Source: Flavobacteriales bacterium (GTDB lineage Bacteria > Bacteroidota > Bacteroidia > CAIKAF01). Taken from it: DNA of 32,143 bases. Location of the stretch: contig JAKRSD010000006.1 of the NCBI GenBank assembly GCA_022402535.1, forward strand, positions 1 through 32,143, read 5' to 3'. A program made the translations under genes and the position numbers. The stretch's first letter is position 1. The number at the start of each line of letters is the position of its first letter. The notes under the pieces were generated by a model. It had not been told where the DNA came from and made no database searches. It saw nothing but the letters and a program-made list of their open reading frames with translations. This document shows, piece after piece, positions 10,058 to 30,836 of this stretch.

Positions 10058-10089
10058 AAAAAAGCCGGAAGAGAATTGTCTTCCGGCTT
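10058..10089 (-). terminator. Rho-independent terminator after small protein A
   Basis: On the minus strand AAGCCGGAAGA and TCTTCCGGCTT form an 11-bp stem around a 6-nt loop, followed by a T-tract. It closes the adhesin/small-protein transcript. Confidence 0.85.
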
Positions 10090-10109: not shown

Positions 10110-10343
10110 TTATTTCTTTTTACGAACCTGATAGTATTTTCCGGCGGCTGCGGCGCCCCCTGCTCCCAATACCAGCCAGGAAAGCGGGTCTAACGGGGCA
10201 CCCGAAACAGGCCCCGGTGTGGTGGGCGGCGGTGTGGTGGGTGGAGGTCCGGGGCCAACCTGTCCCCTCGAAATCAAGGAAATTCCGGTAATCAATATGC
10301 TGATCAGCAATACATGTTTGAGGTATGATGATGTGTTTTTCAT
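10110..10343 (-). CDS. Small proline-rich protein with exosortase-type C-terminal signal (A)
   Basis: 77 aa with four zones. Residues 1-28 form a signal peptide ending near SRGQ. Residues 29-47 are a Pro/Thr/Gly tract (PPPTTPPPTTPG). Residues 48-56 are GAPLDPLSW. A hydrophobic helix (LVLGAGGAAAAG) then ends in KYYQVRKKK. Motif, hydrophobic helix and terminal basic cluster are the tripartite layout of PEP-CTERM-like exosortase substrates; a Bacteroidota variant built on P-I-D is known to me, and P-L-D here looks related. The C-terminal 24 residues differ at one position from small protein B (15175-15411), whereas the N-terminal halves differ widely. The gene starts 10 bp after the large T9SS protein's stop codon, so the two should be co-transcribed. 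I infer it is a substrate of the exosortase at 14294. Confidence 0.8.
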   Translation of the reverse strand: MKNTSSYLKHVLLISILITGISLISRGQVGPGPPPTTPPPTTPGPVSGAPLDPLSWLVLGAGGAAAAGKYYQVRKKK

Positions 10344-10353
10344 GATTCAAAAA

Positions 10354-13300
10354 TTAGTTGATTCCAATAATGATTTTACGGGTTACGGTTTGGGTGTTTC
10401 CTGCAATTTCAGCAATGTACCGGCCTGAAGCAATACCGCTTAAATCAAATGACTGAACCGTTCCCTGTAAGTTTCGGTTCAGTATGCGTTTTCCCTGCAT
10501 ATCATAAAGGGTAAATACAGACTGATCAAAACCTGCTGAAGGAAGTATAATATGAATGGTGTTTGCCGCCGTCCATAATTGTATGCCGTTTTCAGTCATT
10601 TCATCCTGTATGGAAACGGTTCCGGCGGTAACCTGAATACTGGTTTGTGCCAAGGCTTCACAGTCTTCGTTTGAGGCAGATAGCATTACCACATACGTGC
10701 CTTCAGCATTATAGAAATGCACGGGATTCATATCTTCTGACGTATTTCCGTCACCAAAATTCCATGAGAACTGATCGGCATGAATGGTTTGGGCCGTGAA
10801 GGTGATTTCCTGTCCGGTTTCAGCCTGGGTCAATGAACTTACGATTTCAGCCGTTACCACAAAAGCACCGGTTACCGTAAGGTTTTCTTCGGCCACATAA
10901 CCCGAAACCGGTTCGGTAAGTATCAGTGTATATTCACCGGCAGGAATATTCAGAATCTGGGCATTTCCGTCCAAGGTTCCGTTGGCCACTTCTGTTCCGT
11001 TTTCATTGTTGAGGATATAATTCCAGCTGATGGGTGCATTTTCAGCAAGTGAAACATTTGCACCGTTTTCGCAGGTGGCTTCCTGGGTGATTTGATATTC
11101 CACGGGTGGATAAAAATGCACCTTGAACCGGTCGGTATGATTTCCGGCAGCGGACGTAAATGTATAACTGTCATTCACACGCATGTTCTGCCAAACGCCT
11201 GTCTGCACATCTTCCAGATAAATGAAAGAAGAGGCGGCAAATTGGTCTAAATTAGAAAAGGTGAAGGTGTGCGAACCTGATGCGGTAAGTTTTAGCCCCA
11301 GCGGAACGGTAACCACATTTTCCAGATTCCCGAAGGTGTTGGTAGAGTACAACTCGCCATTCCAAATGGAATATAACATGGGTTTGTTATTGTCGCCCAT
11401 GAGTTTGGGGGCATCATACAGATTGTCAAAATTGGTTGTGGCTTCCCCGTGGAAACGGATACGGCAGTAATCCGCTTTGTTGTCGGAGAGGATATCGATA
11501 TTCAATGCCTGGGCAGCATTACCCGAAAACAGGTAAGTGGGTGTGCCGGTGGTTCGTTCTGTATTATCTACCGAAAAAGTGGCCGATGTACCTGAACTCA
11601 CTCTTACCTGAAATCCTTGTCCGATGGCAATTACATCGCCCGGATCCACATCTACCCAGCTGCCTGTGTAAAGTCCCGAAGCACTGTACACTTTGGCAAT
11701 ACCGTCTATATTGGCATCGGGTGTCCAGGTAAGAGGAGAAGGATACGGATTTGAAACAATGTTATAACCATTTGAAAGTGTCGGATTTTGACGGGTCAGG
11801 TTTTGAGAAACCGGACCTGTAGTGTTGGTACCGGTGAAGGTCAATGTGCTTTGTCCCGGTACATCTAAATAATATCCTTTTCCATTTTCCATCAAACCGG
11901 AGGTTTTGGCAAACAGGAGCGACTGCACACAGTTAAGCTGTGGCGTCGCATTTTCAATCAGTTCCTGCCAGTTGCTGTAAGGAGAGTTGAATGCCACATA
12001 ATCGGGGTGACAGCCGGTTTGGAAAGGAATCAAAAAGCCGGGTGCGGCTGCGTTTCCGGCAACACTAAATCCGTTTAATGAACTTCCCATATTGCCGGCT
12101 AACGTAACCGGAGTTCCTAACTGACGGAATCCGTTGGCGGCACCGGGGATATATCTTTCCACCTGATAAACTCCGTTTACACTTCCCGTTCCTGCGGTAA
12201 AATCATCCAAATAAGCAGTGCCAGAAGGTGAGCTCAATAATTTGAAATTAGACGATACGTTCAGTACACCGCCTCCGATAACGGCAGAATGCGATACATC
12301 AACATATCCGTTTACCGAATTAATTGTAGCATTTCCATTAGTGCCAAAACGTTCAAAGTGTGTAGTTCCTGTAAGTGAGATGTTGTTTCCGTATATAAAA
12401 CGGGCTGTTCCATTGAGGGTATGTCCGTTACCGGCCCAAGTTCCTGCCGTGATGTTGATGTTGGCATTGGTGGTATTTGCCGTTAAATTTCCTAAGTTAT
12501 TCAGTGTTCCTCCTGTGCAGTTCAGTCCTCCGTTGGTCAGATTCAGTGTACCAGGCCCGGAAAGTTCGGCGTTGGTTCCGTTTATGATAAAAGCACCTGA
12601 ACTGGTAAGTTGGTTCATGGTAGCTCCCGCATTTAATTTGATTCCGTTTCGGAATGTTTTCGTAGCTGAACTTTGCCAGTCAACGGAATTGCCTGAACCC
12701 ATTTCAAATAATCCGTTAATTGTGGTGGGGTTAGTAGCTCCCCAAGAACCTTGGTTTACTGTTACTCTGAAAATGGGCACTTCATTCACTCCCGCATTTG
12801 GGAAATACGTTTGATTGCTGGTGGCAATGGCACTTACCACATTCCAGTTAAATACAGAATTATGCTCATAAAAAACGTTTGTAGATGTATTTCCTGCTAA
12901 TGCACCGGAGGGACCTCCCGTACCGGAATTTATTCTAAATGTGCCATCCGTTTTAATTCTTATGGTTCCTGTAATTACCGGCAAAATACTTCCCTGATAA
13001 ACCAAGGTGCCGAATACCGTTAAATCATCTCCCGGTCCGTCGGCCACGGTAAGGTTATTTCCGGTGCTTGTCTGTAATACAAGCTGCGCCGAAGAATCCA
13101 CCACGGTTTGGTCTATGGAAATGGCAGAGTTTAACGTTACAATATGGTCTTCGGTAATTAAAATGCCCGCTGATGTGGAGTTAGGTATAAGAGTAGAAGG
13201 TATCCAGGTTATTTGATTAGGAGAAGATTCCCAGGTAGAAGCCTGATTCCAAAATCCATCCTGTGCCGAGCGGAAAAAATCGGTACTGCTACTGATACAT

Positions 13301-14184
13301 ACTCCGTTTTGTGTAATGGTAAATGCATTGGATTCACTTCCCGTAACGGCGGGGTCAGAACCGATAACCCTAATTTTATATCCGGTACCCGTTACCGTAG
13401 GTGAAGGTATGGAAATAGAAATGGAACCATCGTTAACAGAAGTAAGTGTTCCGATATTGAGCGGAGAAGCAAAGCTACCCGAAGCATCGGATAATTGGGC
13501 CGTAAAAATATTACCCGGGTTAAAGGTTCCTGTTTTGGTATAAGAAATACTTCCTGTGGTGGTGTCTACACAGTTCGAAAATGTAAACGGTCCACCCGAT
13601 ACGGATAAATTAGTGGTGATGGTTGCACCCGCGGGTGTTCCTGTAAGCACTACGTCGTCCAATCTAAACTGTGGGGTTGCCGATGTGTTGGTAAATCGAA
13701 TGTGTAGATTAGTAGTAGCCGGAATGGTACCTCCTGTTATGGTAATTAATCTCCAGCTTGCCGTGCCTGTTCCGGTAGGTTGTGCCGGAAACGTAAGCGG
13801 ATTGTAGGAAATACCATCTGTACTCACTTCTACCGTAAATTCAGTAGCATTTGAGGCGGTTGTACTTTTATAAAGCCCAAAAGACAATGATATACCTGTA
13901 TAGCCGGCTGTGTTGATACCTGAAATGATAAAGTTTCTTCCAATTATGTTGGTGAAGAAGACATTTCCACTGCCTGATGCACCTGTATATCCTGTAGAAA
14001 CAGTTGTATTTCTTATATCAGCATTACCCGTAAAAGTTATCGGACTTCCATTTTGAAAAGTGTTTGAAGCAATGGCGGTTGTACCACTTGGAGTCCCCAT
14101 GTTTTCAGATAAAATGGTCACCTGGCTATACGATACGCCTGATGCCAATATCATCAGCAATAGAAAAGAGTAAATTTTTTTCAT
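10354..14184 (-). CDS. Large T9SS-secreted surface protein (adhesin-like, PKD domain)
   Basis: 1276 aa. Signal peptide at 1-20 (ending VSYSQ). Residues about 21-190 look like a beta-sandwich, ending HIRFTNTSATPQFRLDDV. A long Thr/Ser/Gly/Asn-rich beta-repeat stalk follows. Residues 740-1022 form a region shared with the 707-aa protein at 15434 (motifs NGKGY, NPYP, GFQVR, RFKVHF). A PKD-like domain (FSWNFGDGNTSED) is at about 1140, and a type A T9SS sorting domain at about 1195-1276 contains FTLYDMQGKRI and ends RKIIIGIN. It should cross the outer membrane by T9SS and be displayed or released. No enzyme motif was seen. A TATATTTG box lies about 40 bases upstream. The exosortase gene is upstream on the same strand (109 bp) and small protein A follows by 10 bp. 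Confidence 0.85.
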   Translation of the reverse strand: MKKIYSFLLLMILASGVSYSQVTILSENMGTPSGTTAIASNTFQNGSPITFTGNADIRNTTVSTGYTGASGSGNVFFTNIIGRNFIISGINTAGYTGISLSFGLYKSTTASNATEFTVEVSTDGISYNPLTFPAQPTGTGTASWRLITITGGTIPATTNLHIRFTNTSATPQFRLDDVVLTGTPAGATITTNLSVSGGPFTFSNCVDTTTGSISYTKTGTFNPGNIFTAQLSDASGSFASPLNIGTLTSVNDGSISISIPSPTVTGTGYKIRVIGSDPAVTGSESNAFTITQNGVCISSSTDFFRSAQDGFWNQASTWESSPNQITWIPSTLIPNSTSAGILITEDHIVTLNSAISIDQTVVDSSAQLVLQTSTGNNLTVADGPGDDLTVFGTLVYQGSILPVITGTIRIKTDGTFRINSGTGGPSGALAGNTSTNVFYEHNSVFNWNVVSAIATSNQTYFPNAGVNEVPIFRVTVNQGSWGATNPTTINGLFEMGSGNSVDWQSSATKTFRNGIKLNAGATMNQLTSSGAFIINGTNAELSGPGTLNLTNGGLNCTGGTLNNLGNLTANTTNANINITAGTWAGNGHTLNGTARFIYGNNISLTGTTHFERFGTNGNATINSVNGYVDVSHSAVIGGGVLNVSSNFKLLSSPSGTAYLDDFTAGTGSVNGVYQVERYIPGAANGFRQLGTPVTLAGNMGSSLNGFSVAGNAAAPGFLIPFQTGCHPDYVAFNSPYSNWQELIENATPQLNCVQSLLFAKTSGLMENGKGYYLDVPGQSTLTFTGTNTTGPVSQNLTRQNPTLSNGYNIVSNPYPSPLTWTPDANIDGIAKVYSASGLYTGSWVDVDPGDVIAIGQGFQVRVSSGTSATFSVDNTERTTGTPTYLFSGNAAQALNIDILSDNKADYCRIRFHGEATTNFDNLYDAPKLMGDNNKPMLYSIWNGELYSTNTFGNLENVVTVPLGLKLTASGSHTFTFSNLDQFAASSFIYLEDVQTGVWQNMRVNDSYTFTSAAGNHTDRFKVHFYPPVEYQITQEATCENGANVSLAENAPISWNYILNNENGTEVANGTLDGNAQILNIPAGEYTLILTEPVSGYVAEENLTVTGAFVVTAEIVSSLTQAETGQEITFTAQTIHADQFSWNFGDGNTSEDMNPVHFYNAEGTYVVMLSASNEDCEALAQTSIQVTAGTVSIQDEMTENGIQLWTAANTIHIILPSAGFDQSVFTLYDMQGKRILNRNLQGTVQSFDLSGIASGRYIAEIAGNTQTVTRKIIIGIN

Positions 14185-14225
14185 ACGAAAAGTAAAAATG
14201 ATTTTATGCGGCTGAAATTCGGATA

Positions 14226-14233
14226 CAAATATA
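14226..14233 (-). promoter_or_regulatory. -7 promoter element (TATATTTG) of the 1276-aa protein gene
   Basis: An exact TAnnTTTG match 41 bases before the ATG. Immediately upstream on the minus strand is an ACCCCT/AGGGGT inverted repeat (14233-14238 and 14256-14261), a possible operator or weak terminator. Confidence 0.45.
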
Positions 14234-14293
14234 CCCCTTCAAATGATATGCACATAGGGGTGTTAATTATTAAATTGTTAGGATATTGAAATC

Positions 14294-14887
14294 CTATTTT
14301 ACTTTTTTGACCAGATAGTAGTAATAAAACCCGATCATGGTGCCGAATACCATGATGTTAAACACATGGTCATGCGCAAATTCTATCCACTCGGGTTTGT
14401 GCAGAGCCAACAGGGCTAATCCCGAAATACGGATTACGTTAAGAACTTGAGTAATGATTATGCCAAATAAAATCGCGATGACTTTTCTTTTCCAGGGAGC
14501 CTGGGTAATGATAATCAGCAAGGTGTTGTAGTAAATGAGCTGCATGCCCAGACAGTAATTTCCCACCCCTACGGCATGTACATGCTCAATCCAGATGGAC
14601 CGCCCCGTAATATGGGAGGCATAGCCCAGAAGATTTAATACGAGTTTACTGACTAATAACAGTCCTTTTACAATCCAGAGGTTAAAGTCTTCCCATAGGG
14701 CACTGATTACCGGAACCACCCGCTCGTCAAGGGGTGTTTTTTCTTCGCCCAAAAACCAGAAGACGCCTTTCCACGATAACCAAATCAAAAACAGCTTCGC
14801 AAAAAAGAAAACCAGTTCCCTTTCTTTTTGAAACGCCGGATGGTACAGCCATTTTTTTAGGGTGGATTCGGATTTGGACACGCTCAC
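14294..14887 (-). CDS. Exosortase/archaeosortase family protein
   Basis: 197 aa. An integral membrane transpeptidase-like enzyme that should cut C-terminal sorting signals at the outer face of the inner membrane. The three conserved active-site motifs are present: Cys112 in GNYCLGMQL, Arg153 in NVIRISGLALL, and a His at 172 or 174 in AHDHVFN. Hydrophobic segments (about 25-46, 70-90, 112-130, 136-162, 175-193) give five or six helices. The length is like the short Bacteroidota exosortases (XrtF-type), but I cannot fix the subfamily. The start is a GTG, because an in-frame TAA lies six bases before it. It sits between two operons that each encode a tiny protein with an exosortase-type tail, the natural candidate substrates. 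Confidence 0.87.
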   Translation of the reverse strand: MSVSKSESTLKKWLYHPAFQKERELVFFFAKLFLIWLSWKGVFWFLGEEKTPLDERVVPVISALWEDFNLWIVKGLLLVSKLVLNLLGYASHITGRSIWIEHVHAVGVGNYCLGMQLIYYNTLLIIITQAPWKRKVIAILFGIIITQVLNVIRISGLALLALHKPEWIEFAHDHVFNIMVFGTMIGFYYYYLVKKVK

Positions 14888-14899
14888 TGATTATGAAGA

Positions 14900-14907
14900 C
14901 AAAGGTA
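14900..14907 (-). promoter_or_regulatory. -7 promoter element (TACCTTTG) of the exosortase gene
   Basis: An exact TAnnTTTG match 12 bases before the GTG start, giving a very short leader. It shows that the exosortase gene need not depend on the small-RNA promoter further upstream. Confidence 0.5.
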
Positions 14908-14976
14908 ATACGGGATTTGGGTATTATTTGGGTTTAACAACGGTTAATCCTTAAATAATCTTGCGGCTCCTGACAA

Positions 14977-15006
14977 CAAAAAAGCCGTGACAGAGGGTCG
15001 CGGCTT
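14977..15006 (-). terminator. Rho-independent terminator of the predicted small RNA
   Basis: A ten-base-pair stem (one G-U pair) with loop CCTCT on the minus strand and a run of six T. Confidence 0.8.
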
Positions 15007-15058
15007 CTTGTTTGGTGATAGCGGACTTCGAGAGATAGGGGCTGATGTCCTTTATTTG
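14978..15058 (-). ncRNA. Probable small RNA, about 80 nt
   Basis: A complete transcription unit with no open reading frame. The promoter TTTG-N20-TACATTTG (15096-15065) has exactly the Bacteroidota -33/-7 layout. The expected start is near 15058. An intrinsic terminator (AAGCCGCGAC, 5-nt loop, GTCACGGCTT, then six T) ends near 14978. The body contains a short GGAC/GTCC pairing. The unit lies between small protein B (which has its own terminator at 15135-15167) and the exosortase gene (which has its own -7 box). I do not recognise it as 6S, SRP, tmRNA or RNase P RNA. It could also be a leader that ends transcription early before the exosortase gene. Confidence 0.55.
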
Positions 15059-15064
15059 TATCGA

Positions 15065-15096
15065 CAAATGTATAAGGTTTAAACGAACCCTGCAAA
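15065..15096 (-). promoter_or_regulatory. Full Bacteroidota promoter TTTG-N20-TACATTTG
   Basis: The only place in the window where I found both the -33 TTTG and the -7 TAnnTTTG at canonical 20-bp spacing. It points towards the predicted small RNA. Confidence 0.7.
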
Positions 15097-15134
15097 TTTT
15101 TTTTTGACTTTTTTTCTTTATTATCAGAAATTTA

Positions 15135-15168
15135 TAAAAAAACCGGGAAGAAACAGTTCCCGGTTTTT
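15135..15168 (-). terminator. Terminator after small protein B (bidirectional)
   Basis: AACCGGGAA and TTCCCGGTT form a 9-bp stem around GAAACAG, with an A-tract on one side and a T-tract on the other. It lies just past the stop codon of small protein B. Confidence 0.85.
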
Positions 15169-15174
15169 ATGCTT

Positions 15175-15411
15175 TTATGATTTGTCAGCTTTGTTTTTTC
15201 TGTTGTTGTAGTACTTTCCGGCAGCGGCTGCACCACCTGCACCCAACACAATCCAGGAAAGCGGATCTAAAGGGGCTCCCGCAGAAGGCGGAGGTGTGGT
15301 TGGCGGTGGCGGTAATGTGGGTGGAGGAACCACCTGTGCTTTAGCCGTTATTACTCCGCAAACAAATAATATAGCTGTCAGATAAAATACTTTCTCTATA
15401 CGAAGTTTCAT
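15175..15411 (-). CDS. Small proline-rich protein with exosortase-type C-terminal signal (B)
   Basis: 78 aa, with the same plan as small protein A. Residues 1-25 form a signal peptide ending TAKAQ. Residues 26-43 are a Pro/Thr tract (PPPTLPPPPTTPPPS). GAPLDPLSW follows at about 45-53, then IVLGAGGAAAAG and the basic tail KYYNNRKNKADKS. The C-terminal block is the same as in protein A except Ile for Leu at one site, while the signal peptides share little. The gene starts 22 bp after the stop of the 707-aa T9SS protein. I infer processing by the nearby exosortase, which would leave a mature peptide of roughly 20-25 residues, mostly proline and threonine. Confidence 0.8.
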   Translation of the reverse strand: MKLRIEKVFYLTAILFVCGVITAKAQVVPPPTLPPPPTTPPPSAGAPLDPLSWIVLGAGGAAAAGKYYNNRKNKADKS

Positions 15412-15433
15412 ATGGTATACTTTAAATAGTTAT

Positions 15434-17557
15434 TTATTTTTTAATCAGTTTTTGAACGGTTCTTTCTCCTTTGGATGAACGTAATTCAACCAGATACATA
15501 CCGGCAGATAATGTTTCCGTATTAATTTGAACCTGATTGGTACCTTCAGCAATATATTGGCTGATGAATGTTTTTCCGCTCATATCCATAACCTGTAACG
15601 TATACGACTGATCGGTATTTGTAAAGGAAATTTGTACAAAATCTTCGGCAGGATTCGGGAATATCGTGAAGGCATTTTCCACGTTGCCGGCAATGCCGCT
15701 TACATCCACCATGCTGAAATGCACTTTAAAGCGCTCCTGATCGTCGCCGGCAGCGGTAGTAAAGTTGTAAACAAAATCTTCCTCAACCGGAGTGAAAGTG
15801 TTCAGTTTAGTATCTTCCAGGGTTACAGTGGTATTTTCCAGCGTAGCCAAATCTTGGAAACGCAGGCTGAAGTTACCGGGCGTGGCACCGTCATATACAC
15901 CCATCACCACGGTTTTGCTTTCGTTGTATAGCGGGGCATAAGCATTGTAGGCCATTCTTTCGTTTTCTCCGGCTTTCGTGAAAATAAAAGGCACATCAAA
16001 ATCTCCGGAAAGGCGGTTGGCTTCCAATTCCGGATCAAAGTTATCGGTAGCGTTTTCATCAAAGAAAATGGTGGTTGTCATATTAAAATTTTCTTTTTCC
16101 AGAGAAACGGTCAGAAAATGTTCAAAATTGAAATCAAAAAAGGAATATGCAAATGCATTTTTATTGAATTTGTAGAATGTAAATGCATCAGGAACGGAAG
16201 GAGTCATTTTACGTACCTGAAATCCCTGATTTTTACCAATCGTTACGGGAGCAATTGCTGGTATCCAAGAACCCAAAAGACCATCCCAAATTTGAACCTG
16301 CGTGCTGAAGCCTCTTGAGGTTAAGTCGGCAGCTTGAATGTCGTAGGAGCATGGATACGGATTCCCGAGCAGGTACCAACCACGGCTAATTGTTCCGCTT
16401 AACGGGTCAGTAATGGTACCCGAAATCACCGAAGCAGGAACGGAAATATCATCATTATTGAAAATACCGACAGATTGTGGATAAACTCCTCCGCTCATTA
16501 CGGCATATCCTTTCCCGTTCACTAGTGCCTCACCCGCACCTACGGTGAACCACAATTCCTGTGAACAGTTGTTGGCCGATGAAGCATTTTCGTTCATGCG
16601 TAAAAATTGAGACCAGGGAGAACCTGCCGCCAACTGAAGGGGGTTACAGCCGGCTTCGGAAACCAGTTGACCGCTGCCGTTTACGGGGGTTAAATTTACA
16701 CCGGTAGAGGAAGCAATCGGATTGCTGGTAGAAGAACTGAAATAGTGAAAGCGGTTATTGGTAGGAAATACTTTGTCTGTACTGTAAGTTCCTGTCCCAG
16801 TCTGAGTTCCAAAGTTTGCATAATTTCCAAAGCTTGATACGGCCAAACTTCCATCGTTAACTGCACTATTATATACCATAAGGCTGCCATAATCTGCAAT
16901 GAAAACCGACCCGCCGCCTGCTATTGATAACTCAAGTGCTGAATGGTTAAAGAAAACGAATGGTGGGTAAAGATATCCTGAAGAGGAAGGAATAGCCACC
17001 ACATCACCTGCTCCCGGCACTGCCGCGGGAGTCCAGTTGTCAGCAATATGCCACTCAGTACCAACCGAACCATTCCAGATGTGAGAAAAGTGAATTCCGC
17101 CCAAGGCATTAATTTCTGAAAATGAATATAAAGCGCCTCCGTTACCATCGCAGGTAGCGATAACCGCTCCGCCGACCCTGATTTTTTCTGCCGCCGTACA
17201 AGGGCCTCCTGTTTGTACAATCTGCCCTGTTCCATTTAAAATAATGGAGGACCCTGCTGCCAAATCAAGCTGACTGGGAGCATCAAAATCAATAACTCCT
17301 CCGCTGTTTACTACAATGCTGACTGTACCCGCCGCTGTCCAATCTTCATTGGTGGTTACATAGAGAGAACCTCCGCTGTTAATGGTAAGTGTTCCTCCGC
17401 AGGCAGCAATGTCGGCTGCATTAATCGAATTTGTATTTACGATTCCCGTAATAGGACTCGGGCAGGTCTGAGCAGAAGATACTCCGCTAATGATGACCGA
17501 TGCGGCCAACAAAGCAATTCCTCTGCCGTTAAGGTTTCTGAGTAAACTAGTTTTCAT
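15434..17557 (-). CDS. T9SS-secreted surface protein, paralogue of the 1276-aa protein
   Basis: 707 aa. An N-terminal signal peptide (about 1-29, ending VSSAQ) is followed by a G8/beta-helix-like region rich in G, S and N (TLTINSGGSLYVTTNEDW; IIDFDAPSQLDLAAGSS-like strands). Residues about 320-612 match residues 740-1022 of the 1276-aa protein (ENASSANNCSQELWF, NGKGYAVM, GNPYPC, NQGFQVRKM, ERFKVHF). A type A T9SS sorting domain at 628-707 contains FTIFPNPAEDFVQISF and ends TVQKLIKK. No catalytic motif was seen. A TACTTTCG box lies 25 bases before the start. Small protein B follows within 22 bp. The arrangement repeats the one at 10110-14184, so the pair looks like a duplicated module. Confidence 0.85.
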   Translation of the reverse strand: MKTSLLRNLNGRGIALLAASVIISGVSSAQTCPSPITGIVNTNSINAADIAACGGTLTINSGGSLYVTTNEDWTAAGTVSIVVNSGGVIDFDAPSQLDLAAGSSIILNGTGQIVQTGGPCTAAEKIRVGGAVIATCDGNGGALYSFSEINALGGIHFSHIWNGSVGTEWHIADNWTPAAVPGAGDVVAIPSSSGYLYPPFVFFNHSALELSIAGGGSVFIADYGSLMVYNSAVNDGSLAVSSFGNYANFGTQTGTGTYSTDKVFPTNNRFHYFSSSTSNPIASSTGVNLTPVNGSGQLVSEAGCNPLQLAAGSPWSQFLRMNENASSANNCSQELWFTVGAGEALVNGKGYAVMSGGVYPQSVGIFNNDDISVPASVISGTITDPLSGTISRGWYLLGNPYPCSYDIQAADLTSRGFSTQVQIWDGLLGSWIPAIAPVTIGKNQGFQVRKMTPSVPDAFTFYKFNKNAFAYSFFDFNFEHFLTVSLEKENFNMTTTIFFDENATDNFDPELEANRLSGDFDVPFIFTKAGENERMAYNAYAPLYNESKTVVMGVYDGATPGNFSLRFQDLATLENTTVTLEDTKLNTFTPVEEDFVYNFTTAAGDDQERFKVHFSMVDVSGIAGNVENAFTIFPNPAEDFVQISFTNTDQSYTLQVMDMSGKTFISQYIAEGTNQVQINTETLSAGMYLVELRSSKGERTVQKLIKK

Positions 17558-26963: not shown

Positions 26964-29900
26964 ATGAAAAATCAAATTTTTAAAGCAGTTATAGTGCTTC
27001 TGATTATGTCAGTTTCGTACATTAATTCGAAAAGTCAAATCCCTGAGTGGAAATTATGCCATGAACTGGGTCAGGCGGGATATTGTACCAATCTTGTCGT
27101 TAATCCATCTTTTAATAATTACAATCCGGGCTTTCTGCCCACCAACGGACCGGCAAACTCAGTGCTGGACAATATCATAAAATTTTGTCCCTGGACACCC
27201 GCAGTTTCGGTTGTCATGAATGGAGGATACGAATTTGCGGATAATCATCATCTGGGAATTCCCACCGGGTTCAGTTATGTATCGCTTGATGCAGAAACTG
27301 GTGTTCCTTCCAATTTTTATGGAACTCAGGAAGATGAATATAATACGGATGTGTGTAACGAAGACGACGGAGATTTTAATGCATACGCCTATATGGGGCT
27401 GTACACCTATGCACAGAACATCCACAACCCGCAGGGCAATCCGCAGCCGGCACCCGATTACCGCGAGTATGCCCAGCAGAAACTGAACGCACCGCTGCAG
27501 AACGGAATCACTTATTCTGTTACGCTGAGGGTAAGTCTGGTAGAATCGAGCAAAAAAGCAACCCCATTCGGGCTTCTGTTTACGGCGCAAAGGCCTTATT
27601 TTACCCCGTTCGGTACCCAGTATTCGGGAGTAATACCCATGCCTGCCGGTATAGCCCAGCCACAGATAACGGTGCCTGCCACCACAGATAAAAACAACTG
27701 GGTAACCTACACGTTTCAATATACCCACAGCGGACCCGATGCACAGTTTCTTACCATCGGCAATTTTGACACCGATGCCCAGCTTACTGCGGGCGGAAAT
27801 ATCCAAAATGTGGCAGCATCAGCCTGTAACGGCTGCCAGCAGGGCGATTTCAGTTTTTATTACATAGACGATATCGCCATACACGAAGCCACACCGCGCT
27901 GCTGTACCTTTACCCCGGATCCGCAGCTGCTTTGTCCGTATCTTCAGACTTATCCTGCCCCGGTTCCTGTTTACAACGGTACGGGATGTGCGGGCGGCGT
28001 TTTTCAGATTCAGAATGGCGCGGATTACCCGCAGGGTACCGTTTTTACCTGGTATTTTAACGGGCAGACCGTAGGAAACGGAACTTCATTAAACTACACC
28101 TATCCGTTTGGCACCCAGGGAAGTTTAACCGTAACGGCACTGCCCCCATACGGATGTCTTACGGAGGCAGATATTCAGATACCGCAGTGCTGCGTACCCG
28201 CCGGCTACACCGGCAACAATGCCACCACCTATGTGGCCACGGGCGCACCCGGGAGCAACAAAGCCTCCGACATGCTTGCCCACTTTGGCGGTACCGTACC
28301 CGTAAATGCGCAGATGGCCGTAAACGGACTGTTTACCGTAGATGTGAACATGCATTGGGACGATGTGGATGTGGTTTTTGGAGAGAACGCCAAAGTGGTA
28401 CTCAATAACAACATCCACCTCAGCATAGAAAAATCGCACCTGTATGCCTGCGACAAAATGTGGGAAGGACTCGAAGCCGACCACCCTTCCGAAAAAATAT
28501 CGCTCTACAAAGGCTCTCTGCTCGAACATGCCTACACCGGCATAAACAGCATAAACGGCGCCGATATACAGGTACACAACTCCACCCTGAACCGAAACCG
28601 GAACCACATAGGCATCGTGTTTTATTCGGGTACGGAGCATCCGGCCCGTATAACGGCCAACACATTTACCTGTAAGAACCTCTCCACCGGCGTACTGCAG
28701 ACCCTGCCGGCTCCCATGCAGAACGAACATACCGCATTCGGGATTACGGCGCTTGCCGCAGGGGGGCTTACCGTGGGCCGCGATGTTAACTTTGTGCTGG
28801 TGGGCACGCCCAACAAATTTGAATATGCCGATGTACATATATCGGCCGCTTACACCGGGCTGGAGGTAAAAAATGCCGAATTTAAACTGCCCCTGAACTG
28901 GACCCCGCCTTCTCCCTTGGCCGGCGGAATTTTAAACATTACCAACGGCGTGGCCATTTATGCCTACGGACCCGACGGCACGGCAAGCACCCAGCAGCTT
29001 ATGGTGGGCGGCCTGGGGGGCGAAGCCTGCACGTTTAACGGAAGCATACCAAATCCTGCCTTGCCTTTTTTTAACAACAATATGGGTGCGGCCATTGTAT
29101 CCATGAACAATATAGACGTAACGGTGCGCAACTGCGGGTTTACCAGACTCAAATACGGCGTGGTGGTAAACAAACTCACCGGCTGGCAGTCCGTTTCGGG
29201 AAATGTGGTAACACAACATGGCATGAATCTGCTGGTGAATACCTCCACCTTTACCGATATTGACTCCTGCGGGGTATATGGCGTGGTGTATAACCGGGCC
29301 GGTGTTACCGTACAGCAGAACACCTTTACCGGCATGGGGCACAAGGGTGTGTACTTTGGCAACGTAACATCACCGTCTTTGTTCTCGGGCTATCTGATTC
29401 AGGATAACTCCATAGCCGGCGACCGTATGACCCACGGGGTACACCTTATAAACTGCTCAAGGGCAAAAGTGCTGGCCAATACGGTGCAGTTTACGGCGGC
29501 TCCTGTCGGTTTTTATACCATGGGCAGCACTACCCGCTATGGCATACGCACCGAGGGTTGCTCCAGACTACAGATTATAGACAACCAGGTGCGCCGCACC
29601 AACACTACCATCAGCGGGGTATTCAGCAACACCAATTACCTGCGCCTGCAGGGCATAAACGTGGCGGCCTGCCCGGGTGCCACCGTATGCAACAACACCC
29701 TGGAACGCCTGGGCACCGGCATGCGCTTTATGCTCGATAACTCGGGCATACGCATACGCAAAAATCTGATGCAGAGCGACCATACGGGTATTGATTTGTT
29801 TCAGGCTAAAGTGGCAAATCCTCTTGTTTTTTCACACGATTTTCTGCCTACGGACAACCGGTGGAATAATATCGTGGGTGGTAACACGACGCGGAGGTTA

Positions 29901-30836
29901 ACCGGCTCAAGTAACCAAAATACGGTATGGCGTTGGAGAAGTAATAACAATGCAGATTTCAACCCAAATAATCATACTGTTGATCCTCAAATAGGAACGA
30001 CATTTGCAACTTTTAATGGCGGAAATCCAAGTACTTTGGTTACCTGTTTCGGTGAAGAGGTTTCGTCCATAACCGAACAAAATTTGGAACGCGAAGCCTT
30101 ATTTGGCGAAACGGTAGATAATGCAGAAACGTTAAGTCCGGAAGATTCCGCAGCCCTCAGGCTGATTTCGGAAAAACAGGCGTTCTTTTACCTTGCCAAT
30201 GACAGCAGCCTCTGGGCTACTAATTTGGTTGAGGATGATAAATTCCGTGACTATGTAATCGAAAAAGAAGAAGAACTGTTGGGTGCATTAAAAACTGTAC
30301 TGGATTATGAACTTCAGGGGGATAAAAATTCCGCTTTAGCCCGGTTGCAGTTGATTTATCCGAACGGTACTGCCGAAACCTTTGAAAAAGTGGTAAACGA
30401 AATTTACATTATCCATTGGATGAAGGACACCCTTTCGTTTGACAGTACAACGATGGAAACATTAATGCTGATTGCCAACCTGACTATGGAAGATGGCGGA
30501 AGTGCGGTACTGGGAGCAAGGGTATTATTGGGCGGTGATGCCGTGGATTTTGAAAGCAAAATGGGTGATCCCTTACAGGAAGAGGAAAACCTTGAAGCCA
30601 TGATTTCCGTTTATCCGAACCCTACTTACGGATATATAAACTTTTTAACCGAAAACATGGACCTGGGCTTTCATTTTACAATGTATACGACGGAAGGAGT
30701 AAAGGTGTTTGATAAATACCTGAATACCCCTTCGCCCATTGAGATTTTTGATATATCTCAAGGTCTTTATCTTTATGAGATAAGAACGGCGGATATGAAA
30801 AAGAAAACGGGAAAATTAGTGATAATGAAAAACTGA
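26964..30836 (+). CDS. Large T9SS-secreted protein with beta-helix region (type A tail)
   Basis: 1290 aa. Signal peptide at about 1-25 (ending INSKSQ). Residues 40-310 are an N-terminal domain beginning NLVVNPSFNNY, common in Bacteroidota surface proteins. A Cys-containing Ig-like segment follows (about 315-415, ending IPQCCVP). Residues about 420-960 have the short Asn/Gly-rich turns of a right-handed parallel beta-helix (VQQNTFTGMGHKGVYFG, IRTEGCSRLQIIDNQV). A charged alpha-helical segment is at about 1050-1190, and a type A T9SS sorting domain at about 1207-1290 contains SVYPNPTYGYINF and ends GKLVIMKN. Polysaccharide binding or adhesion is plausible from the helix fold; catalytic residues are not evident. 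Base composition changes inside the gene. It lies 47 bp before the next surface-protein gene. Confidence 0.82.
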   Translation: MKNQIFKAVIVLLIMSVSYINSKSQIPEWKLCHELGQAGYCTNLVVNPSFNNYNPGFLPTNGPANSVLDNIIKFCPWTPAVSVVMNGGYEFADNHHLGIPTGFSYVSLDAETGVPSNFYGTQEDEYNTDVCNEDDGDFNAYAYMGLYTYAQNIHNPQGNPQPAPDYREYAQQKLNAPLQNGITYSVTLRVSLVESSKKATPFGLLFTAQRPYFTPFGTQYSGVIPMPAGIAQPQITVPATTDKNNWVTYTFQYTHSGPDAQFLTIGNFDTDAQLTAGGNIQNVAASACNGCQQGDFSFYYIDDIAIHEATPRCCTFTPDPQLLCPYLQTYPAPVPVYNGTGCAGGVFQIQNGADYPQGTVFTWYFNGQTVGNGTSLNYTYPFGTQGSLTVTALPPYGCLTEADIQIPQCCVPAGYTGNNATTYVATGAPGSNKASDMLAHFGGTVPVNAQMAVNGLFTVDVNMHWDDVDVVFGENAKVVLNNNIHLSIEKSHLYACDKMWEGLEADHPSEKISLYKGSLLEHAYTGINSINGADIQVHNSTLNRNRNHIGIVFYSGTEHPARITANTFTCKNLSTGVLQTLPAPMQNEHTAFGITALAAGGLTVGRDVNFVLVGTPNKFEYADVHISAAYTGLEVKNAEFKLPLNWTPPSPLAGGILNITNGVAIYAYGPDGTASTQQLMVGGLGGEACTFNGSIPNPALPFFNNNMGAAIVSMNNIDVTVRNCGFTRLKYGVVVNKLTGWQSVSGNVVTQHGMNLLVNTSTFTDIDSCGVYGVVYNRAGVTVQQNTFTGMGHKGVYFGNVTSPSLFSGYLIQDNSIAGDRMTHGVHLINCSRAKVLANTVQFTAAPVGFYTMGSTTRYGIRTEGCSRLQIIDNQVRRTNTTISGVFSNTNYLRLQGINVAACPGATVCNNTLERLGTGMRFMLDNSGIRIRKNLMQSDHTGIDLFQAKVANPLVFSHDFLPTDNRWNNIVGGNTTRRLTGSSNQNTVWRWRSNNNADFNPNNHTVDPQIGTTFATFNGGNPSTLVTCFGEEVSSITEQNLEREALFGETVDNAETLSPEDSAALRLISEKQAFFYLANDSSLWATNLVEDDKFRDYVIEKEEELLGALKTVLDYELQGDKNSALARLQLIYPNGTAETFEKVVNEIYIIHWMKDTLSFDSTTMETLMLIANLTMEDGGSAVLGARVLLGGDAVDFESKMGDPLQEEENLEAMISVYPNPTYGYINFLTENMDLGFHFTMYTTEGVKVFDKYLNTPSPIEIFDISQGLYLYEIRTADMKKKTGKLVIMKN

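Follow-up and report, generated by a model that had tools for sequence, protein, structure and literature searches.

Why should an exosortase gene lie between two genes for large T9SS proteins, each of which has a gene for a tiny protein with an exosortase-type tail behind it? This question is raised by the DNA analyzed here, a stretch of 32,143 nucleotides from a Flavobacteriales bacterium (contig JAKRSD010000006.1, hereafter the window). A preliminary description of the window had proposed that two duplicated modules flank the exosortase, and that in each the sorting tail of an exosortase substrate has been split off its passenger and placed on a companion peptide, in which case the locus may couple T9SS display with an anchor, plug or signal peptide made by the exosortase.

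Organization of the exosortase locus

All five genes of the locus are open where the preliminary description had placed them, and all are on the minus strand (Table 1); the short gaps between large and small gene, 22 bp in the first pair and 10 bp in the second, follow from these positions. In the order of transcription, a T9SS gene and its small gene are followed by a hairpin, then by the exosortase gene, which lies between the pairs, and then by the second T9SS gene, its small gene and a further hairpin. Overall, the hairpin scan returned 11 such elements versus 8.3 in shuffled sequence, which is little excess. The type A T9SS tails described for both large proteins are supported by TIGR04183, with scores above its cut-off of 23 bits in each case (Table 1).

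Table 1. Features of the exosortase locus, listed in the order of transcription
Feature	Position in window	Strand	Remarks
T9SS type A cargo protein, first pair	15434..17557	-	707 aa; TIGR04183 52.2 bits; kin of the OLB12 protein in the same place
RemA/RemZ-type domain of the 707-aa protein, before the T9SS tail	15716..16381	-	
T9SS type A tail (CTD) of the 707-aa protein	15437..15664	-	
Small exosortase-substrate-like protein, first pair	15175..15411	-	78 aa; paralogue of 10110-10343; distant kin of same-genome PID-CTERM proteins
C-terminal tail of the 78-aa protein: GAPLDPLSW, hydrophobic stretch, basic end	15178..15279	-	From sequence; OLB12 tail alike
Terminator-like palindrome 3' of the first small gene	15138..15168	-	12 pairs; T-rich tail on either strand
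Exosortase-family protein	14294..14887	-	197 aa; GTG start; subfamily unassigned; TIGR04178 and PF09721 over cut-off; C, R and H kept; placed in tree
T9SS type A cargo protein, second pair	10354..14184	-	1276 aa; TIGR04183 36.0 bits; kin of C29 and C7 proteins
RemA/RemZ-type domain of the 1276-aa protein	11113..11769	-	
T9SS type A tail (CTD) of the 1276-aa protein	10366..10560	-	
Small exosortase-substrate-like protein, second pair	10110..10343	-	77 aa
C-terminal tail of the 77-aa protein: GAPLDPLSW, hydrophobic stretch, basic end	10113..10202	-	From sequence
Terminator-like hairpin 3' of the second small gene	10062..10089	-	11 pairs, then TTTTTCTT

The reading of the two pairs as duplicated modules was only partly upheld. 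The small proteins are close paralogues, but their large partners are not. The 10354 protein is closer to T9SS proteins encoded on two other contigs of the same genome, C29 and C7, than to the 15434 protein (54% versus 26% identity in the domain that they share), and the 15434 protein is 52% identical to the large protein of OLB12, on whose contig the gene order is as in the window and the exosortase is 74% identical. Duplication of a single module was rejected because the large partners are of different lineages. Elsewhere in the window, positions 26964-30836 of the plus strand encode another large T9SS protein (tail at 30609-30824), which is apparently unconnected with the exosortase locus.

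The window exosortase

The identification of the central gene as an exosortase with Cys, Arg and His motifs was confirmed. Its product passes the superfamily models TIGR04178 (51.2 bits, cut-off 23) and PF09721 (35.8 bits, cut-off 25.7), and when 30 exosortases are aligned with MAFFT, the Cys (GNYCLG), Arg (NVIRIS) and His (FAHDH) of the window protein fall into the same columns as those of the other proteins. The protein scores below the cut-offs for XrtX (NF046081, 61.9 bits versus 170), XrtY (NF046083, 56.6 bits versus 160) and XrtF (TIGR04128, 30.6 bits versus 90), and in the tree it falls outside the XrtF clade. No TIGR04127-like neighbor was found among the window ORFs. The window exosortase joins the OLB12 protein in the tree (100/100), with a long branch of 1.94 changes per column, and is placed loosely near the one further exosortase of its own genome (89/77), which is encoded on contig C7 and is XrtX-like yet under the XrtX cut-off. 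A PDB sequence search with the window exosortase retrieved nothing convincing, and its AlphaFold model, generated from 2 sequences, had a pLDDT of 58.6 and was too poor for a fold search.

The small proteins and their tail class

Both small proteins contain a signal peptide, a Pro tract, the motif GAPLDPLSW, a hydrophobic stretch and a basic end, with about 20 residues remaining between the signal peptide and the tail motif. They are 60.6% identical to each other; the tail is their most similar part and is strongly conserved, whereas there is little conservation in the Pro-rich part. Neither protein could be assigned to an NCBIfam or Pfam family at its cut-off, and neither was matched by the PID-CTERM model NF046080 (25 positions, cut-off 26 bits) at E values up to 10. 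A search of the window's genome found one related small gene on contig C29 and another on contig C7. Each lies directly behind a T9SS protein gene, and the products of both are canonical PID-CTERM proteins (NF046080, 44 bits versus the cut-off of 26). The window small proteins are homologous to these two and have the architecture of the class, being small and secreted, with a motif, a hydrophobic stretch and a basic end. Judged by architecture and homology, then, the window tails are a divergent form of the known stand-alone microprotein class PID-CTERM, with APLDPLSW in the place of PIDGG.

Both window small proteins carry a PLDPLSW tail like that of OLB12 (77-81%), and the C29 and C7 tails differ from it. 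Because the window small proteins share the OLB12 tail while their large partners have different relatives, the tail type, as far as these comparisons of sequence go, goes with the exosortase locus rather than with the large partner. Similarly, the second exosortase of genome G045 has its own adjoining small protein, of the PLDFG type. Such matching of tails to exosortases is what an enzyme-substrate pairing would give, while falling short of proof.

The OLB12 small gene (L099:3148-3400), which has the same tail, is interrupted in this MAG by a frameshift that separates Pro tract and tail and may be either a sequencing error or real. The Pro-rich part of PID-CTERM proteins from many genomes (e.g., the proteins of L130, L146 and L155) often has CWPPPC immediately ahead of PIDGG, and this motif could close into a small disulfide loop; CWPPPC is absent from both window small proteins.

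Linkage of small genes, T9SS genes and exosortases in related genomes

PID-CTERM matches (E up to 0.01) were found in 45 of 99 related genomes and an exosortase in 63, with all 45 among the 63 (Fisher p = 9e-14; p = 1e-6 with one genome per family). Occurrence of the tail family in genomes lacking any exosortase, which the preliminary description had named as evidence against its proposal, was thus seen in 0 of the 45 PID-CTERM genomes. We inspected the neighborhoods of 53 PID-CTERM genes, two of which are those on C29 and C7 of the window's genome. Directly behind a same-strand T9SS gene, with start-codon gaps of 1-78 bp, were 28 of the small genes; 31 adjoin an exosortase gene, and 15 loci read T9SS - small - exosortase. 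The other 25 small genes are not behind a T9SS gene, with 16 of them beside an exosortase and 9 beside neither. Chance adjacency could be ruled out as the source of the 28 pairings (binomial probability of about 1e-22 at an assumed background of 5%). The adjacency of small and large genes, whose absence from relatives would have been the other evidence against the preliminary proposal, is conserved across many families. The proposed coupling of T9SS protein, tail-bearing small protein and exosortase is thus real, and related genomes conserve it.

Several genomes that have both an exosortase and the domain shared by the T9SS partners (see below), and that gave no PID-CTERM match, contain variant small proteins with tails of the PVNGG, LPIDSN, VPLDFG, APLDALAG, APLDILAG and VPITGIEW types. 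These adjoin the domain protein or the exosortase.

Other short products were seen in similar positions. One variant small protein, with the tail AVPLSDHLYILAVLGTLYFAYSQKKEKQI, is encoded directly behind a RemA-domain T9SS gene at L304 (G043 C28). In genome G024, a peptide of about 47 aa is encoded behind each of three RemA-domain T9SS genes (L275 on C7, L276 on C12 and L277 on C9). These peptides have the conserved core TIDNEISMVMMS-FGP-GDPEASVIKKLNPLRWW(R/K) and no PID-type tail, and by their sequence they look like a peptide-precursor family.

A RemA/RemZ-type domain in the T9SS partners

Of 32 T9SS partners, counting those of the window and of OLB12, 29 have in common a domain of about 222 residues, which usually lies immediately ahead of the T9SS tail and has no family in Pfam or NCBIfam. 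A profile was made in which the window domains are rows and from whose training set RemA and RemZ were absent. This profile matches Flavobacterium johnsoniae RemZ at residues 764-1022 (E = 4e-32) and RemA at residues 1096-1344 (E = 3e-31), and on this profile match we identify the partner domain as that of RemA and RemZ. An AlphaFold model of the domain, from 3 sequences, had a pLDDT of 55.6, too low to justify a fold search; the published structures of the translocon resolve RemZ well only in its CTD (PMC10994853).

The window's genome has at least 150 T9SS tails, among which a single-copy query found 5 proteins with the domain. Four of these 5 are the direct upstream neighbors of the genome's four small genes, and among the 30 strongest of the at least 150 tails the domain occurs only in the window's 15434 protein. 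The fifth domain protein (G000 C15:128432-129859, L192) is also a T9SS protein, and its gene is not followed by a small tail-bearing one. In many genomes, a single small gene contrasts with up to ten domain proteins. The further copies of the domain mostly have no small neighbor, and therefore any joint action would have to be partly in trans.

The domain is also associated with exosortases at the level of whole genomes. In a sample of 93 genomes with many T9SS tails, an exosortase was found in 55 of the 57 genomes with the domain versus 7 of the 36 without it (p = 3e-15), and the association persists with one genome per family (n = 53, p = 9e-9), which is the only way in which relatedness was handled. 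The two genomes with the domain and no detected exosortase are G056 and G066, the latter 72% complete. The partners used to train the profile all came from genomes with an exosortase; its matches to RemA and RemZ, which were not in the training set and belong to F. johnsoniae, where XrtF is present, argue against an artefact of training. T9SS or gliding genes were not supported as the cause of the association, because T9SS tails (TIGR04183, 98 of 100 genomes) and GldJ (96 of 100) are nearly universal in the sample.

Proposed role of the anchored peptide and alternative explanations

We consider it somewhat probable that the locus is a variant exosortase/PID-CTERM system working with RemA/RemZ-type T9SS proteins, which the anchored peptide would serve. 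The recurrence of the small/T9SS pairing across many Bacteroidota suggests that exosortase and T9SS, which have been studied as separate export systems, act together at the cell surface. From the observed gene linkage, the shared partner domain, the co-occurrence in genomes and the tail type that follows the exosortase locus, we infer cleavage, acceptor and binding as follows. The small protein would be exported through Sec and kept in the inner membrane by its C-terminal helix, whereupon the exosortase would cut near the (A)PLD/PID motif. The product would be a Pro-rich peptide of about 20 residues, whose new C-terminus would be joined to an acceptor, probably a lipid or glycan; this cut-and-transfer course is likely by analogy with archaeosortase A. 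The large T9SS proteins would use the anchored peptide; given the gene linkage, it would most likely tether the RemA-type domain that precedes their T9SS tail or act as its partner in assembly.

In F. johnsoniae, deletion of xrtF reduced colonization and biofilm and abolished zorbs, as did deletion of porZ (PMC10936215). These porZ-like surface-attachment phenotypes are a point for the proposed role, as is the reappearance of missing small partners as tail variants. Points against it are the further domain copies, most of which have no small neighbor, the fifth domain copy of the window's genome among them; the genomes G056 and G066; and the scores of the window tails and exosortase, which are below the PID-CTERM and XrtX models.

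A realistic, though rather unlikely, alternative is an ordinary exosortase/PID-CTERM system, with small proteins processed for a purpose of their own, e.g., on exopolysaccharide, and T9SS neighbors that are co-regulated surface genes and have no physical link to them. The 25 small genes that are not behind a T9SS gene would fit such a system. In G055 (L160) and G094 (L178), moreover, an opposite-strand gene overlapping or next to the small gene has a product with a Tyr/Gly-rich end (YGYGYG...); such a tail beside a PID-CTERM/exosortase pair recalls the polysaccharide-export tyrosine kinases, which we assume these products may be. Exosortase systems are classically tied to exopolysaccharide genes (PMC1569441). 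Co-regulation nevertheless explains neither why the T9SS neighbors share one specific domain nor why this domain tracks exosortases genome-wide even where the two are not adjacent.

We regard it as improbable that the exosortase releases the Pro-rich peptide as a secreted signal or antimicrobial, with the T9SS protein as its receptor, processing or delivery partner. The small size, with so few residues between signal peptide and tail motif, would suit such a product, as would the other conserved short peptides that one genome encodes behind domain-bearing T9SS genes; however, the Pro-rich part varies between the window copies and the tail is conserved, a pattern that favors sorting over a specific signal, and no gene for a dedicated transporter or peptidase came to notice. 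It is very improbable that, as the preliminary description had proposed, the sorting tail was split off the T9SS passenger, so that the small protein would act one-to-one in cis with the neighbor from which it derives. Adjacency, tight spacing and the four small genes for five domain proteins in the window's genome favor this reading. Against it, the tail is that of a class of stand-alone microproteins, every examined member of which was small, and 25 of the 53 small genes lack a T9SS gene in front of them; a lone small gene is found in many genomes with up to ten domain proteins, the large partners already have their own T9SS tail, the window large partner and tail type have different relatives, and the genomes sampled showed no fusion of an exosortase tail to a large protein.

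Relation to known systems

Tail class, exosortases and T9SS were all known individually, and the T9SS neighbor of PID-CTERM genes may have been noted elsewhere, e.g., in the curation of NF046080. PID-CTERM found no mention in the openly licensed PMC papers searched, and the T9SS/small-gene pairing with a RemA-type domain, the co-occurrence of domain and exosortase, and the PLDPLSW variant are undescribed in the openly licensed PMC literature searched. The PID-CTERM/exosortase X system (NF046080 and NF046081) resembles the window locus in the signal peptide, Pro-rich stretch, P(I/L)D, hydrophobic stretch and basic end of its small protein and in the adjoining exosortase; it differs in that its models do not match the APLDPLSW tails or, at the XrtX cut-off, the window exosortase.

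In PEP-CTERM/EpsH systems, the signal sits on the passengers themselves, many of them large, whereas in the window it is on tiny proteins paired with T9SS cargo. The likeness lies in the tripartite C-terminal signal, which is thought to be cut by an inner-membrane exosortase (PMC1569441). Archaeosortase A belongs to the same superfamily as the window exosortase, but its substrates include a large S-layer glycoprotein. Archaea are not known to have a T9SS. In haloarchaea, this enzyme couples processing of a C-terminal segment to lipid anchoring of its substrates, and it is our model for cleavage and lipid anchoring (PMC7157517). RemA and RemZ of F. johnsoniae are, like the window partners, large T9SS type A proteins with the domain before the CTD (8gl6, 8gl8; PMC10994853); in the text of that paper searched, neither 'exosortase' nor 'small protein' gave a match.

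The locus and its relatives give a testable link between a defined tiny substrate, an exosortase and a T9SS-protein domain, in a pattern that extends over many families. A domain that had no family model is singled out, and its presence tracks exosortases. The window's genome, with two exosortase/tail pairs, is a natural case for study.

The XrtF system (TIGR04128 with TIGR04127) also has a Bacteroidota exosortase, and PID-CTERM proteins occur in four XrtF-only genomes; it differs from the window locus in the low XrtF score of the window exosortase and in the TIGR04127-like protein, none of which was seen adjoining that exosortase. In each of the four genomes (G019, G052, G074 and G091), the single detected exosortase is over the XrtF cut-off and a PID-CTERM protein is over its own. 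The substrates of XrtF were left to future work by the authors of the deletion study (PMC10936215), and PID-CTERM-like microproteins are candidates for them, as suggested by these model matches. Whether a general rule holds in Bacteroidota, by which RemA-domain T9SS proteins, RemA included, would need an exosortase-anchored micropeptide in trans and PID-CTERM proteins would be substrates of both XrtF and XrtX, is doubtful, although we see it as a possibility worth stating. In a further genome, G029, the exosortase falls in the XrtF clade (124 bits versus the XrtF cut-off of 90), and a variant small protein is encoded directly behind a RemA-domain T9SS gene.
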